Both the position numbers and the translations under genes were made by a program. From the IMG/VR virus record IMGVR_UViG_3300031774_000131, positions 1 through 26,002 of that record: a stretch of 26,002 nucleotides of DNA, one strand, 5' to 3'. This document shows positions 2,145 to 24,866 of this stretch, in pieces. Each line of letters starts with the position of its first letter. The first letter of the stretch is position 1. A model generated the notes under the pieces. That model did not search any database and was not told the DNA's origin. It saw only the letters and a program-made list of their open reading frames with translations. Source of the DNA: a virus.

Positions 2145-4011
2145 CTAATTTACCAGTATCAATACCTTCTTCGCTTCTTGGTTTGACGCTTTCAAAGTAT
2201 TCATCTGTTTGATATTTTCTTATATTTTTTCTTTGTAATGTTTTCTTTAATGATCCTCTTCGTTTACGTATAGTTCCCATCCAGCCTTCAATTACTGTTC
2301 TAATCTTTTCGTCAGATGTAGACCCAAATAATTCTAACTGTCCTTCTCCTCTAAGTTGTTTAAACAGTTTATTCATTACATTAGCCGGTGGTGTTAAATC
2401 ACTTGTAGAGTATCTTTGTAACATCCTAAGAGTCTTAAGCAGTTTATCGTCTTTCCCTATTGCTCTTACTAAATCAATTCCGGGTATAGCATACTCAATA
2501 TCTTGTAGCTTAATGATGTCTTCGATCATTTGAGGTAATCTTGCTATTTGAAATTTCTCATCAATTTTAGTACCTTTTAAATAACCTCTATCGTTTAATC
2601 TATCTAACAAATCAATTAAAACATTTGGTTCTATAGCATCACCTTGAGCATACATAGTATCTATAACTCCCTGAGCTTCTCTAGCTATTAATTCTGATTC
2701 TAATAAGATATCACCTAATTCATCAGCTTTATCAAGTCTAAACTTATCAGACTTCGCCATTTGATCTAGTACAGTATCTGTAAAGAACTCTTCTCCAGCT
2801 TTCCCTTTACCTGTACGTGCTTGTAAGAATATATGAGCTAAATAATGGGGAGTATCTTTTGTTTGTGCAGAGCCAATGACTCCTAAAAGATTCTCTTCCA
2901 TATTACCTATGCCGTTAAGCTTTTGTAATAATCGTTTATTTATTGCTCTGTGTAATTGACTTTCAAAACCAACTCCATCATAAATACCCATAACAGTTTT
3001 TAAAGCTGCTATATGATGTACTTCAAATTTAATTGGTTTACTTAAGCCCATAGCTTTCATCACAGGCTCATAGGCAGTCATCATTTTACCTTTATATGTT
3101 TTTTTAAACGCTTCATATACGTTTCTATCACCAGTAGTTAAATTAGGATATTGTTCACTCATTGGAGTCTGGAATAGCTCTAAGAAGTAACGTCCTTCTG
3201 CTCCTAATTTTCCAGCTTTCGTATCTGTTCTAATTGATTCTCTAAACGGTCTGTACCTAAATACTAACGACTCACCTACATCCTCCACATATCCGGGAAG
3301 ATTTTTTTTACTTGTTGCTGTTTTAAATTTAGACAATACGTCTTTAGGTAAGTTAGCTCTAGGTGTAGGATCTAATAAGTCCTCCGCCTCTAGATTTAGG
3401 TTAAGTTGCTCAAAGTCAGGGTCATCTGGTCGCAAAGGATTTCTAGCTGCTCCAATAGTACCAGCACCAAAACCGGGACCATCATACCGGATTAAATCTC
3501 CTCCCTGTACTCTCCTTTTTAATTGCTGAAGGAAAAATCCTGTATCACCAGCAATCTCAGAGACTTCGCTACCAAGTTTACCAGTTACTGCTGCTGGAGC
3601 TAGGTCAAACATACCTCCAAACGCTCCACCAAGACCAACTCCTCCTGCAAATTCACCAAATGAAGGCAATTCTCCTTCATCAAGAAGAGACATACTGGTA
3701 GTAGTAATACCACCAGAAAGACCTCCTTTAGCTACACTTGTTGCAAAGCGTCCGCCTCTAGTTAAAGCTCTAGCTTGTGCTCCGCCGGGGATTAAGCTAG
3801 TTAGTCCGGCTGCAGCTAGTTCTCCTTTACTAATTTCTCCACCACGTATTTTCTGTGATAAGTAGTTTATAAAAGTTCCACCAGCAACTTGAGATGTGGG
3901 TTCAAAGGAAAAGACGTCTAGTAATGTATTAGCTCCTACTTCAAAACCTAGGCCGAGGCCGGTTCTTAGCCCACTTCGGGCATCCCATAAATTCTTTTCT
4001 TCTTCTTCCAT
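2116..4011 (-). CDS. 631-residue protein with glycine-rich hydrophobic N-terminus and HNH-like motif
   Basis: I do not recognise a named family. Residues 60-145 are rich in Gly, Ala and short hydrophobic runs (for example GGVGLGGAFGG near 123-133), as in membrane-active virion or toxin carrier segments. The middle is charged. At 328-334 the sequence KFEVHHI supplies a His-His pair, followed by GNMEENLL with Asn370 and Asn374 and then HYLAH with His389 and His393. This HH...N...H spacing resembles the beta-beta-alpha metal fold of HNH/WHH-type nucleases. The C-terminus (590-615) is Lys/Arg-rich. It starts on a TAATG overlap with the HNH gene upstream and overlaps the terminase downstream. It could be an injected or packaging-linked nuclease, or a structural protein with a fortuitous motif. 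Confidence 0.6.
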   Translation of the reverse strand: MEEEEKNLWDARSGLRTGLGLGFEVGANTLLDVFSFEPTSQVAGGTFINYLSQKIRGGEISKGELAAAGLTSLIPGGAQARALTRGGRFATSVAKGGLSGGITTTSMSLLDEGELPSFGEFAGGVGLGGAFGGMFDLAPAAVTGKLGSEVSEIAGDTGFFLQQLKRRVQGGDLIRYDGPGFGAGTIGAARNPLRPDDPDFEQLNLNLEAEDLLDPTPRANLPKDVLSKFKTATSKKNLPGYVEDVGESLVFRYRPFRESIRTDTKAGKLGAEGRYFLELFQTPMSEQYPNLTTGDRNVYEAFKKTYKGKMMTAYEPVMKAMGLSKPIKFEVHHIAALKTVMGIYDGVGFESQLHRAINKRLLQKLNGIGNMEENLLGVIGSAQTKDTPHYLAHIFLQARTGKGKAGEEFFTDTVLDQMAKSDKFRLDKADELGDILLESELIAREAQGVIDTMYAQGDAIEPNVLIDLLDRLNDRGYLKGTKIDEKFQIARLPQMIEDIIKLQDIEYAIPGIDLVRAIGKDDKLLKTLRMLQRYSTSDLTPPANVMNKLFKQLRGEGQLELFGSTSDEKIRTVIEGWMGTIRKRRGSLKKTLQRKNIRKYQTDEYFESVKPRSEEGIDTGKLDEFGYPIRE

Positions 4012-19851: not shown

Positions 19852-22702
19852 GTCTGTAGTATTTAGGTGTATAATTACCTTCCCAAGATACTGCACGTAA
19901 TGTAGCTGGGGCGGGATGTGATGATTTTAACGTAACATCTACGTTTGTATTCTTTTCGTATACAGGAATTGTTTTAATAAACTCTTCTAAGTATGGTGCA
20001 TCAGAAGCATTATATTCATCAAGCTCAGTTGACTCGTATACTTCCGTATAATCTGTTTTACCTACACGTTCAAGTGTGGTTTCGTAAAGCCCTATTTTTC
20101 CAAAGTGAAGTTTTACTCTATGTAAGACTAATGAAGCATTTACATCTGATCGAGTACTATTCCCTTCTTGTCTAGTGTAGTAAAATGTAGGAAATTTAAC
20201 TTCATATGGATAAATATATCCTATAGTTAATGTAGCACTTGACCAATCGCCGGGTAGTGTAAAGCTAGTTGTGCTTGTACTCGTAGGTTTTGCATATCTT
20301 CCAAGTCGTGCAGCGTTAGTATTTGTATCAACAACCACTAAGTCATGATTAGGTGTAGTTACACTAGGCAACCAACTGACACTACTAAAGGTTGTAAGAT
20401 TTGTAGATGCACTAAAACTTCCACCACTTATAGTAGTATAATTATCTACATGTAATAGAAACTCAACTTCATCTTGAGTTATACTAGGATCTGATGTAGT
20501 CTGTACAAGTTTAATAGACTGTAGAAACTTATCACTATCTAAAAAGAAGTATTCATCATTAATAATAAAATGATATAGTAATGGATTATTAAGTTTCCAT
20601 TTAAACCATGCAGCTTGTTTTCTCTCTTCAGATACTTGGAAGTATTTATAACCATAAACAATATCAGAATCAGTCTTACCCATTAAGACAACAGCGTTCT
20701 CTCTTGAGTTAGTTAATAAATCAATATCTTTAGGTAGTAAAGTAGGGACAACCTTACTTACTTCAACTATATTAGGTTCACCTTCTCTCTGAGTATTAGC
20801 CATTTCATTAAATCGACTATACTTACCAGAGTTATCTAGGTAGGCTAATGTCGTTCCTAGAGATATCGGGGGTATGGTTTCGTTGTAATTAAAAGTTGAG
20901 ACACTACGTAACTTAGCTGTATCAGGGTTTAAAACTGTATCATCTGATGATAATAAGAATTGCTGGTTTGTACTAAATATAACTAAACCTGTGTTTATTT
21001 CTATACCATCAAATAATTCAGATGGGAATATAGAAGCAGCAGATATATCTATAGGATCAGCAGCGGATACTGTAAGAGCTGATTCAGCAAAGAAATCGGG
21101 AGTACCAAATGTTCCCGGTCTAGATGTTATTACATTTTCTCCTGATAATAAAGCTAATCTATTACGAAAAAATAAAACTTTATTAATACGTTGACCTACA
21201 AATGAAGGTAGAGGGTTAGTGATATCATCACCTACTTCTCGATCAGCATATGTAAATTGTTTTACAGTAAATGTAGTAGTAGCTGTACGTTGTATAACTA
21301 AAGGCATATTAGTTAGAGATTTGGCTATACCCGGTTTAGCACATTCTGCCCATGAACCAGTACCATCTCTACTATTTTCTCCTTCAAATCTTAAATAATA
21401 ATCATCTTCCTCAGCCATTCTAGCATTAGCTATCTTGACTATATACCCATGTTTACATTGATTAGGTAAGTTTTGTACATCGTTTACAGAGCCTTGAAAA
21501 CATCGCATCAGATCCTCTTCAACAACCTCTATACTAAACGAGCTAGTACTGGAAAAATATATACCCGGTCCTATAACTTTGGCTGTAATACCACTAGGTA
21601 AGTTAGCTGTAATACCACCAAGAATAGTATCAGCAGTTACAGCTGTATCAGCATCAAAAGGTGTAGGAGCTGGTCGTATTAAACCATCCCCATTAGAAGA
21701 CACAGTAGCGTTAACTTGTGTGCTTTCTATCTCGGTTACGGTTATTTCTATATAAGATTGTCCATCAGAACTACTTGCTTCATCAGCATGCTCTGGATTA
21801 ACTCGTACAACGTCACCAACTTCCCAACCTTCACCACCATGTAGTAAGACACATTCTATATTATAGCTACATCTGTAGTTTTGTCCGTCTGGTCCGTCGC
21901 TTGAAGCACTGTAGTTAGGGCTAACACCTTGCTGACCTAAAGCTGTTATACGAAATGTTAGGTTATCTCTACCTGTAGTTAAAGTTGTACCACTGCTGTT
22001 TTTAACATGTACTATATTACTTGAACTGGTGTAACTATTAGCAGCTGTGGCAGCATAAACTTCTGTACCTATACCGGGACAATGTCCTGATCCGTCTCCT
22101 TCATCAAAGTCATTTCCAGTAACTTTTATTTTAGTAGCTCGCTTAACAGTTGTAACAGTTGTACCATTGTTTATATTAATACCATACTGCCTACCGTTTT
22201 CAGTACGCATTAATTCTACATATCCAAAATGAGCATCTGGTGTAGCATCCGTTGTTCCTGTTGTTCCGATAAGAGTATTAGCATTAGTAGCATCACGATT
22301 AGTGAGAAAAGTTGTATCATTAATCGTAAGTGTCTGTATATTCTCTGGTGTACTTGTAGCTAAGTAATTTGTTATAGCTGTCTGGCCACCAGTACCGTAA
22401 GCTGTGGTCATCTGTACACCATCATTGCAACGCCAAACACGGATTTGACCGTCAGCTGCAATCTGTCCTATGTATGATCCTTCTGTCTCATCACGAAAAT
22501 AATGAAACCACGAACCACCACCCTGTACGTTAGCTAGAGGAGCTGTGCCAACTCTTTTAGCACCCGGTCTTTTAAATAGACCTTTAGTTATGTCTGGTAT
22601 TGCGTTTGTTATCTCTTGTACCTGACCGGGAAATTTTAGCTGGTCAGGCTGTTCTGACATTCCTAGTGAGTATTGAGGGATAGTTTGTGTAATTGTTGTC
22701 AT
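19844..22702 (-). CDS. tail tubular protein B, T7 gp12-like (nozzle)
   Basis: A 952-residue protein, larger than T7 gp12 (794). The N-terminus MTTITQTIPQYSLGMSEQPD, then FPGQVQEITNAIPDITKGLF and KRPGAKRVGTAP, is the signature of this family, followed by HYFRDETEGSYIGQI. Long Thr/Ser-rich beta segments and an insert at about 190-350 explain the extra length. The C-terminus (VTLKSSHPAPATLRAVSWEG) is also typical. It forms the distal tail nozzle below the gp11 ring. Starts on a TAATG overlap with the gp11 gene, which implies coupled translation. Confidence 0.94.
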   Translation of the reverse strand: MTTITQTIPQYSLGMSEQPDQLKFPGQVQEITNAIPDITKGLFKRPGAKRVGTAPLANVQGGGSWFHYFRDETEGSYIGQIAADGQIRVWRCNDGVQMTTAYGTGGQTAITNYLATSTPENIQTLTINDTTFLTNRDATNANTLIGTTGTTDATPDAHFGYVELMRTENGRQYGININNGTTVTTVKRATKIKVTGNDFDEGDGSGHCPGIGTEVYAATAANSYTSSSNIVHVKNSSGTTLTTGRDNLTFRITALGQQGVSPNYSASSDGPDGQNYRCSYNIECVLLHGGEGWEVGDVVRVNPEHADEASSSDGQSYIEITVTEIESTQVNATVSSNGDGLIRPAPTPFDADTAVTADTILGGITANLPSGITAKVIGPGIYFSSTSSFSIEVVEEDLMRCFQGSVNDVQNLPNQCKHGYIVKIANARMAEEDDYYLRFEGENSRDGTGSWAECAKPGIAKSLTNMPLVIQRTATTTFTVKQFTYADREVGDDITNPLPSFVGQRINKVLFFRNRLALLSGENVITSRPGTFGTPDFFAESALTVSAADPIDISAASIFPSELFDGIEINTGLVIFSTNQQFLLSSDDTVLNPDTAKLRSVSTFNYNETIPPISLGTTLAYLDNSGKYSRFNEMANTQREGEPNIVEVSKVVPTLLPKDIDLLTNSRENAVVLMGKTDSDIVYGYKYFQVSEERKQAAWFKWKLNNPLLYHFIINDEYFFLDSDKFLQSIKLVQTTSDPSITQDEVEFLLHVDNYTTISGGSFSASTNLTTFSSVSWLPSVTTPNHDLVVVDTNTNAARLGRYAKPTSTSTTSFTLPGDWSSATLTIGYIYPYEVKFPTFYYTRQEGNSTRSDVNASLVLHRVKLHFGKIGLYETTLERVGKTDYTEVYESTELDEYNASDAPYLEEFIKTIPVYEKNTNVDVTLKSSHPAPATLRAVSWEGNYTPKYYRRG

Positions 22703-23364: not shown

Positions 23365-24507
23365 TTAACCAAATGCTGTTGGTGCAGTGCCTGTACCAGC
23401 GTACAGTTCTACAGCAGCAGCTGGGTTTAAGTAGTCTGCTCCCATAGCAAGTCTTCCGAGGATTACATCACCTTGGTAAACCACTGAGATGTCTCCACTT
23501 GTTACTTGAACTTGTGGGCCGATTGCTTCAACACAACCTGCAGCTTCTTTCTGGAAGATAAGTCCACATGAGTTGTTGAACTTAGCTTCTTGTCCGTAGT
23601 CGTTAACGGTAGCGTTATGATCGTCACCCATTGCTTCGCCTACGAAAGAGCCTGAGTTTCCGGGATCTGTTATACCGGGTGCAGTTGCAGATGCAGTTCC
23701 GTACTTAGTACCAAACTTTCCAAAGAAAGGAATGTTCATTGACTTGTAAATCTTGATTCCAGCAATTTCGATGATGCCATTACCTGATTGTAATGAGTCA
23801 CCTTGCTCGTCTCTGTTAACAAGACCATTAGAACCAACAGCTTGGATAAGCTCGTAGTACTGTCTTGGGTTAAGAACACCAACTCTGCCTTCAGTAGATA
23901 CTCCTTTCTCATCAAGAGCAGCAGCAGCATCATAGAATGCGTTAATTAGTGAAGCTGATACATATGCGTCAGCACCTGAGTTGTTTGTTCCTACTCTGAT
24001 CTGTGTACCACCGGGCTCTACAAAGTTAGCCTTTGTGATTGGACTAGCTTTTCTAGCTGCCTTAGAGATAGCTCTGAAGATCTTTCTGTCGTACTTCTCA
24101 GCAAGAGCGTATCCAATCTTCTTGGATATTTCACCACGTAAGTCGTAGTGTGCTAGTGTTTCATCTAGCTCATAAACAAATGCACTTGAGATTAATAAAT
24201 CGTCGCATGTAATTGTTTTTTCAGCTACTGGAGGTGCTCCATCGGAGTTACCTAGTATGCTGTTTCCTGGAGTATGATACTCCGCAGTTGTTCTACCTGT
24301 GTAGATGAACTGAAGACTCTTACCATTAGTAAGTGATCTCTTCATTACAAGGTCTCTAGCGATTGTATTACGCTGGAAGCCTTTGAACATCTCTCCACTG
24401 AACAACTTTAAAAATAATGCTCTTCTAGCAGTAGTTGTAGAAGCAGCACCATTATCAGCACCCGGGCTAGTTAAGCTCGTGGTTAGTGTGCTATTTTGTT
24501 GTGCCAT
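23365..24507 (-). CDS. major capsid protein, T7 gp10-like
   Basis: A 380-residue capsid protein of HK97 fold as used by T7-like cyanophages. Diagnostic stretches are RRALFLKLFSGEMFKGFQRN, FIYTGRTTAEYHTPGN, LISSAFVYELDETLAHYDLR and GVLNPRQYYELIQAVG. The C-terminus (DVILGRLAMGADYLNPAAAV) is also typical. It forms the icosahedral head. It is followed after 16 bases by a strong terminator and preceded by a riboswitch and two tiny genes. No good Shine-Dalgarno precedes the ATG, which is notable for what should be the most abundant protein. Confidence 0.96.
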   Translation of the reverse strand: MAQQNSTLTTSLTSPGADNGAASTTTARRALFLKLFSGEMFKGFQRNTIARDLVMKRSLTNGKSLQFIYTGRTTAEYHTPGNSILGNSDGAPPVAEKTITCDDLLISSAFVYELDETLAHYDLRGEISKKIGYALAEKYDRKIFRAISKAARKASPITKANFVEPGGTQIRVGTNNSGADAYVSASLINAFYDAAAALDEKGVSTEGRVGVLNPRQYYELIQAVGSNGLVNRDEQGDSLQSGNGIIEIAGIKIYKSMNIPFFGKFGTKYGTASATAPGITDPGNSGSFVGEAMGDDHNATVNDYGQEAKFNNSCGLIFQKEAAGCVEAIGPQVQVTSGDISVVYQGDVILGRLAMGADYLNPAAAVELYAGTGTAPTAFG

Positions 24508-24519
24508 TGATATGGATTG

Positions 24520-24744
24520 TTAAAAGTTTATATTGCTTTGTACAAATTTTTCTCGAGATTGTTGTGGTCTATCCCACCGTCTAGACGGCTGATGGTATCC
24601 GGCGTACCGGGCAAAAGCCAATAGAGAAGAGGTCCGACTCTGAGGTGCCTCTTGTCTCATGTGATATAGAACGTGTGTCCATTCTATAAAACAGAAAAGA
24701 GCTACAATCGAAATGATTGCAGCCCAACATGAATTTAATTTCAC
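24520..24744 (-). CDS. 74-residue membrane protein starting at GTG
   Basis: The GTG overlaps the stop codon of the 17-residue peptide (GTGA), so coupled translation from the peptide's ribosome binding site is likely. Residues 1-28 (KLNSCWAAIISIVALFCFIE, then WTHVLYH) form a hydrophobic span, and the rest is basic and Arg/Ser/Gln-rich (QSRTSSLLAFARYAGYHQPS). An in-frame stop just before the GTG rules out a longer form. It ends 12 bases before the capsid ATG. A competing frame beginning MLGCNHFDCSSF covers part of the same stretch, so reality of this gene is probable, not certain. Confidence 0.5.
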   Translation of the reverse strand: MKLNSCWAAIISIVALFCFIEWTHVLYHMRQEAPQSRTSSLLAFARYAGYHQPSRRWDRPQQSREKFVQSNINF

Positions 24745-24794
24745 TTAACAAATTTTTTGTAAGCAATGCCACGATATACGTAAGTTACTTGCAT
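24741..24794 (-). CDS. 17-residue downstream peptide (YRG type)
   Basis: Encodes MQVTYVYRGIAYKKFVK, preceded by GGAG at 24804-24801 with a six-base spacing. Short peptides with an LTYRGxxY pattern (as in cyanobacterial DUF4278 proteins) are what gave the downstream-peptide RNA motif its name, and that motif lies directly upstream here. The peptide may act only as the riboswitch-controlled leader that delivers ribosomes to the GTG gene overlapping its stop. Confidence 0.75.
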   Translation of the reverse strand: MQVTYVYRGIAYKKFVK

Positions 24795-24809
24795 TGTAAT
24801 CTCCATATA

Positions 24810-24866
24810 CCTAAGCCCCGTTCCATGCTTAGGAGTCATGCGTCCCTAGTGGGATGAACGGACGGG
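24810..24866 (-). promoter_or_regulatory. glutamine-II (downstream-peptide) riboswitch
   Basis: Read on the minus strand, CCGUUC (24861-24856) pairs with GAACGG (24823-24818), and CCUAAGC (24833-24827) pairs with GCUUAGG (24816-24810). The order a-b-a'-b' is an H-type pseudoknot. Between them UCCC-ACUA-GGGA (24854-24843) forms a hairpin followed by CGCAUGAC. These are the conserved words of the downstream-peptide motif, later shown to be a glutamine-binding riboswitch in cyanobacteria and their phages. The pseudoknot ends five bases before the GGAG of the 17-residue peptide, so ligand would act on ribosome access. The match is from memory of the motif; a covariance search would settle it. Confidence 0.85.

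Follow-up and report, generated by a model that had tools for sequence, protein, structure and literature searches.

A phage-borne type 2 glutamine (Glutamine-II) riboswitch lies just upstream of a microgene for a 17-residue YRG peptide, ahead of the major capsid gene, in the DNA analysed here (26,002 nt, positions 1 to 26,002 of the IMG/VR virus record IMGVR_UViG_3300031774_000131; hereafter the window). Judged by its sequence, the element is confirmed as a genuine member of this known class. The explanation that we favour, with a probability of about 70%, is that the riboswitch turns on the YRG microgene, while the capsid gene has a leader of its own, a second structured RNA that we call E2. 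Features are mapped in Table 1.

Table 1. Features around the riboswitch and capsid start; positions are those of the window unless a locus is named
Feature	Position	Strand	Basis or remark
Glutamine-II (type 2 glutamine) riboswitch aptamer	24810..24863	-	RF01704 match and pseudoknot covariation
Aptamer helix a, CCGTTC with a' GAACGG	24861-24856 with 24823-24818	-	
Aptamer hairpin, TCCC with GGGA	24854-24851 with 24846-24843	-	
Aptamer helix b, CCTAAGC with b' GCTTAGG	24833-24827 with 24816-24810	-	
Shine-Dalgarno (SD) GGAG of YRG peptide	24801..24804	-	6 nt 5' of ATG
17-aa YRG peptide MQVTYVYRGIAYKKFVK	24741..24794, ATG at 24794, including stop 24743-24741	-	Synonymous codon variation
Overlapping 74-aa GTG ORF, hydrophobic N-terminus	24520..24744	-	ORF list; coding status uncertain
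Terminator-like hairpin between peptide and capsid, 11 pairs then TTTTCTGTTT	24699..24725	-	Consensus scan
ALT hairpin directly 5' of E2, long stem, conserved apex CACCTCAGAGTCGGA	24624..24658	-	Stem covariation
E2 structured RNA, no Rfam match	24556..24621	-	Covariance model R1, 89.4 bits (window is a model member)
E2 helix P2	24619-24616 with 24590-24587	-	
E2 helix P3, loop TACG	24610-24607 with 24602-24599	-	
E2 helix P4	24577-24574 with 24567-24564	-	
Perfect palindrome TTTGTACAAA between E2 and capsid start	24537..24546	-	
Major capsid gene (Gp10A-like), without recognisable SD	23365..24507	-	PF21703, E 4.5e-73
tRNA-Gly(TCC) or tRNA-Leu(AAG) flush with E2	L152:158-230, L162:2390-2462, L203:2803-2874, L204:210-281		

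The aptamer and its fold

A cmscan search of the whole window matched RF01704 on the minus strand at 24863-24810 with 47.6 bits (gathering cut-off 33, E 7.3e-9), aligned over the full model (1-60 of 60). No other Rfam family rose above its cut-off in the window, the glnA or type 1 family RF01739 reaching 17.3 bits against a cut-off of 35; no second RF01704 match occurs anywhere in the 26,002-base record, and a search of 14 control genomes gave no match. The covariance model thus bears out an initial annotation of the same DNA, which had proposed a Glutamine-II riboswitch; the a-b-a'-b' pseudoknot, CCC-GGG hairpin, GGAG and 17-residue YRG peptide that it described are all present on the minus strand.

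IMG/VR was scanned with a pattern drawn from the aptamer core, ignoring genomic context, and at least 120 stretches matched. The pattern fixed most of helix a and left helix b free. Standard pairs fill 95.8% of paired cells in the 81 distinct viral copies among the matches listed; shifting the partners 1-3 columns along the same alignment lowers the figure to 31-58%. All seven pairs of helix b show double compensatory changes in these copies, as do two of the four hairpin pairs. Helix a is invariant across them, which makes the a-a' half of the compensatory-change test uninformative; the expectation of compensatory change in both pseudoknot helices is therefore borne out for helix b only. The high pairing and the helix b double changes together argue that the aptamer structure is under selection. 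One locus (L089) was rejected as a riboswitch, the pattern having matched by chance where the helices are absent.

The probable switched product

A YRG ORF (motif YRG-V/I-x-Y) lies downstream of the riboswitch in the 125 loci analysed. Our ORF finder sought YRG, with loci lacking it to be reported separately; there were none among loci with enough downstream DNA. Phage ORFs are mostly 13-40 aa long, nearly all with one YRG box, and mostly start 23-30 nt after GGAACG in the homologues; some start calls are uncertain (L006 and L117, for example, were given late starts). The nine bases encoding YRG appear as 14 different synonymous nonamers over the 125 loci, and because these codons vary synonymously we regard the coding downstream of the aptamer as real. 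The riboswitch is assigned to this adjacent microgene.

Host copies of the riboswitch come almost entirely from Prochlorococcus and Synechococcus-related assemblies and stand before YRG proteins of 33-58 aa, mostly 55-57 aa. The longer phage peptides align to positions 39-57 of DUF4278 (PF14105), its C-terminal YRG box, at 14.8-22.9 bits (E 0.0001-0.04), below the gathering cut-off of 25.3. The window peptide, queried with 11 added residues, had no Pfam match; it amounts to a scaled-down version of the YRG box at the C-terminus of host DUF4278 proteins.

The initial annotation had instead named a small membrane protein as the product. The 74-aa GTG ORF that would encode it is patchy, has no PHROG match and only a Pfam match at E 0.18, and a resembling reading frame was seen in L124 by eye only. 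We rejected this unconfirmed ORF as the switched product; of the two candidates it is the YRG peptide that is conserved as a target.

Distribution among cyanophages

Of 14 complete T7-like cyanophage genomes examined, 11 have one copy of RF01704 upstream of the capsid gene (P-SSP7, P-SSP10, P-GSP1, S-TIP37, S-RIP2, NATL2A-133, P-SSP2, S-RIP1, NATL1A-7, S-CBP1 and the uncultured S28-C3). The P-SSP7 copy is at 20520-20600. Isolates with the riboswitch match the model over its full length, at 45-59 bits, and in those named genomes whose annotation was inspected the riboswitch sits between psbA and the capsid gene. A regulatory RNA at this place in a T7-like phage had been called unusual; in T7-like cyanophages it is common. 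None of the feature tables inspected for these regions annotates a riboswitch. S-SBP1 has only a partial match (19.6 bits), and S-B28 and DSL-LC07 have none; since three T7-like cyanophages are without an intact copy, the riboswitch is not essential.

Metagenomic DNA gives the same setting. Among the context-blind IMG/VR matches listed, a T7-like capsid gene lies downstream in nearly all contigs with enough flank, and psbA is usually upstream. A regular expression found the riboswitch in 33 of 56 E2-selected and 19 of 25 capsid-selected metagenomic loci whose upstream sequence extends for 1 kb or more (59-76%, lower bounds).

In the window the riboswitch does lie where described, with oxygenase-like genes on one side and the capsid gene of a T7-like cyanophage on the other. 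Two oxygenase-like genes (25549-24977 and 26001-25534), one matching 2OG-Fe(II) oxygenase, stand where psbA is found in relatives; because the record ends there, psbA may lie further upstream. The PHROGs label 'ferrochelatase' on the families best matching these genes looks like an annotation slip. Elsewhere in the window, an ORF at 4337-4011 has an HNH-endonuclease-like CxxC...H...CxxC pattern, seen by eye only. In L038 and L110 the riboswitch-YRG unit precedes psbA, so that the unit moves relative to psbA. Phage-type riboswitch loci also turn up in two bacterial assemblies (L241, a Porticoccaceae MAG, and L304, whose genome also contains E2); these are probably infecting or mis-binned cyanophage.

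A second structured RNA before the capsid gene

E2 is well supported as a real, selected RNA fold. Its helices P2 and P3 covary, with double changes in 8 of 14 pairs and a covariation score of 0.31 against 0.08 when shuffled in the model-fitted alignment, which leans towards structure; a plain MAFFT alignment run alongside gave 0.28 against 0.09. P4 is nearly invariant in the counts, GTGG/CCAC and GTAGG/CCTAC versions being seen by eye. R1 finds E2 in 75 of 79 capsid-selected loci, and in the four negatives (L138, L150, L153 and L156) hardly any sequence, or none, precedes the capsid gene.

Because many capsid-selected loci contributed to R1, loci outside the model are better tests. E2 is present in all 14 complete T7-like cyanophage genomes, 8 of which were not used to build R1; the weakest is S-RIP1 with 34.9 bits. 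When IMG/VR was scanned for an E2 pattern that took no account of capsid, 69 new loci emerged. A capsid start lies within 160 nt in 65 of them; the rest comprise two cut off, one with an incomplete capsid match and one ending 177 nt on without a match. The distance from E2 to the capsid gene is nearly fixed, mostly 50-75 nt before the start. R1 found nothing in six T4-like cyanophages or in the controls T7, HTVC019P and Pf-WMP3. The single strong match in ten host genomes is in a genome whose riboswitch locus is of the phage type, presumably an infecting phage; the other host match (21.6 bits, E 0.04) was treated as chance, as was an extra match in NATL2A-133 (17.7 bits, E 0.0095), leaving E2 single copy per genome.

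Known identities for E2 were tried and set aside. Rfam 15 holds nothing relevant, with E up to 5 for the window and up to 10 for L030, so a known RNA family was rejected. A repeated phage promoter is unlikely given the single good match per genome and the RNA-type covariation. E2 is not itself a tRNA or tmRNA: ARAGORN places tRNAs only beside it, in a minority of loci.

Pairing to the anti-SD of -4 kcal/mol or stronger occurs at 0 of 128 capsid starts, compared with 45% for tail tube B and 2% for tail tube A. Perfect palindromes of at least 10 nt lie between E2 and the ATG in 104 of 117 loci; mononucleotide shuffles give them about 10% of the time. They are 10-16 nt long, and their sequence differs among phages while self-complementarity is maintained; a hairpin, an RNA-RNA dimer and a DNA site are candidate roles. 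A 6-nt palindrome (CTCGAG, TGATCA, TGGCCA) often stands ahead of the longer one.

Modules adjoining E2

Three interchangeable modules abut the 5' side of E2: a tRNA, a tRNA-like T-arm fold or the ALT hairpin. Across all scanned loci there are 11 tRNAs, and nine of them, Gly-TCC or Leu-AAG, end 0-1 nt before E2. The tRNA-Gly of NATL1A-7 enters this count twice (two loci, one genome), and L203 and L204 share one tRNA type. In NATL1A-7 (NC_016658) the annotated tRNA-Gly occupies 3479-3549 and E2 3413-3478. In the T-arm module a hairpin bears a canonical T-loop, and an acceptor-like stem often closes it (4.8 bp against 4.0 expected, difference 0.82, s.e. 0.12, from related sequences that are not independent). 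Stem pairs 1-6 of ALT are 91-100% paired with up to five pair types (85 loci, 55 unique flanks), against 58-68% in slid controls; where phages have the small overlapping ORF, the ALT apex may be coding sequence as well. An abiF RNA (RF03085, 47.8 bits) lies just 5' of tRNA-Leu and E2 on one contig (L203:2761-2797, L351:3937-3901).

The flush arrangement suggests RNA processing at the E2 junction. We tentatively propose, as possible rather than probable, that E2 and its 5' module form an undescribed RNA system. Cleavage of the tRNA-maturation type, by RNase P or RNase Z, or by RNase III/E at the ALT hairpin, would release the capsid mRNA from the psbA-YRG transcript ahead of it; E2 would then protect that mRNA or drive its SD-independent translation while host RNase E rises. 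Host RNase E goes up when P-SSP7 infects (review PMC10989914), so a capsid mRNA that is protected or processed would be plausible. These processing and translation roles are hypotheses.

Proposed mechanism and alternatives

Host type 2 switches belong to DUF4278 genes and activate expression on glutamine (PMC6316151), and we infer glutamine sensing by the phage aptamer from its class. With the pseudoknot strands masked, simple folding predicted a rise in SD accessibility above 0.2 in only 14 of 95 loci; the SD of the YRG ORF mostly pairs with its own downstream region, and simple folding found no general SD-sequestering alternative fold. SD sequestration through simple alternative folds is thus unsupported, and since no general SD-masking platform emerged, we take the ON direction from the riboswitch class. 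Plentiful glutamine would stabilise the H-type pseudoknot and so raise translation of the 13-40 aa YRG peptide. Functions for the peptide and for E2 are ones we infer: since the peptide copies the C-terminal YRG box of DUF4278, a family resembling the N-terminus of the glutamine synthetase (GS)-inactivating factor IF17 (PMC6316151), it probably adjusts nitrogen assimilation in the infected host or acts there as a mimic of a DUF4278 partner. The capsid gene, with E2 as its separate structured leader, would not be a direct target of the riboswitch.

The initial annotation had allowed that the riboswitch possibly acts on capsid as well. In its full form this alternative has the riboswitch control the capsid gene and late operon, through attenuation or translational coupling, and so time virion production to nitrogen. 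The conserved position in the psbA-capsid interval suits it, as does the terminator-like hairpin between peptide and capsid in the window; such sites are missing from most loci, however (33 of 125 have one), so they are not general, and the consensus scan found one against 0.6 expected by chance. The distance from aptamer to capsid start ranges over 227-1,441 nt (median 307), with annotated genes intervening in P-SSP10 and NATL2A-133, and S-B28, DSL-LC07 and S-SBP1 keep capsid and E2 without an intact riboswitch. Variable spacing and losses make direct capsid control unlikely, and we have demoted it.

Those same losses would suit a selfish or vestigial host-derived cassette of aptamer and YRG box that recombination maintains and that regulates nothing in the phage, as would the presence of the same aptamer class on host DUF4278-type genes. 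Pairing of helix b kept by double changes in 81 divergent copies, the synonymous change of YRG codons and the constant copy number of one per genome argue against such a cassette, which we consider quite improbable. It is very improbable indeed that the phage aptamer binds another ligand. The junction between helices does differ consistently (CGCATGA in phages, CGCAGTTCGAG in most host copies), but the isolates having the riboswitch match Rfam over the full length at 45-59 bits, and the core CGTTCA/CGCA/ATGGAACG is common to the host copies, a core that the scan pattern itself required. Activation of the YRG microgene by a glutamine-responsive switch, with E2 serving capsid, thus stays our preferred explanation.

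Relation to known systems

What appears new here is the T7-like cyanophage placement of a known class and, as the more novel outcome, E2; in a literature search limited outside open-access papers neither was found described, an earlier mention of the placement being possible. The riboswitch occurs across much of a major marine phage group that includes the model phage P-SSP7, which makes it possible to test directly whether cyanophages sense host nitrogen status while infecting, and very small YRG/DUF4278-like peptides gain a viral setting.

ORFs associated with the Downstream-peptide RNA are typically 17-100 aa (Weinberg 2010, PMC2864571). The phage copies share with RF01704 of marine picocyanobacteria the aptamer architecture, the invariant core and a short YRG ORF directly downstream. 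They differ in the junction, in ORF length (13-40 aa against host proteins of 55-57 aa) and in their site within the structural-gene cluster before the capsid gene. A glnA-like riboswitch is reported to accompany the tmRNA gene in methylophage Melnitz (PMC9004378); it too is a related, phage-borne glutamine aptamer, but the associated gene and the phage group are others and the window scores only 17.3 bits against 35 for RF01739. Glutamine riboswitches have also been noted in T4-like cyanophages (PMC9964418, PMC9602691), which share the host group. RF01704 is sub-threshold there, however, at 24-30 bits in three of six genomes and without a match in the other three; the one match inspected, that in S-SM2, falls after nrdC and before a hypothetical ORF.

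The major capsid gene of T7, gene 10, likewise has a dedicated leader (with the phi10 promoter annotated), which provides a strong ribosome-binding site. Cyanophage capsid starts, unlike that of T7, lack a recognisable SD and carry E2, for which R1 is blank in T7. The presence of E2 before the capsid gene in all complete T7-like cyanophage genomes examined suggests control of the most abundant protein by an RNA leader, standing in place of the T7-style ribosome-binding site.
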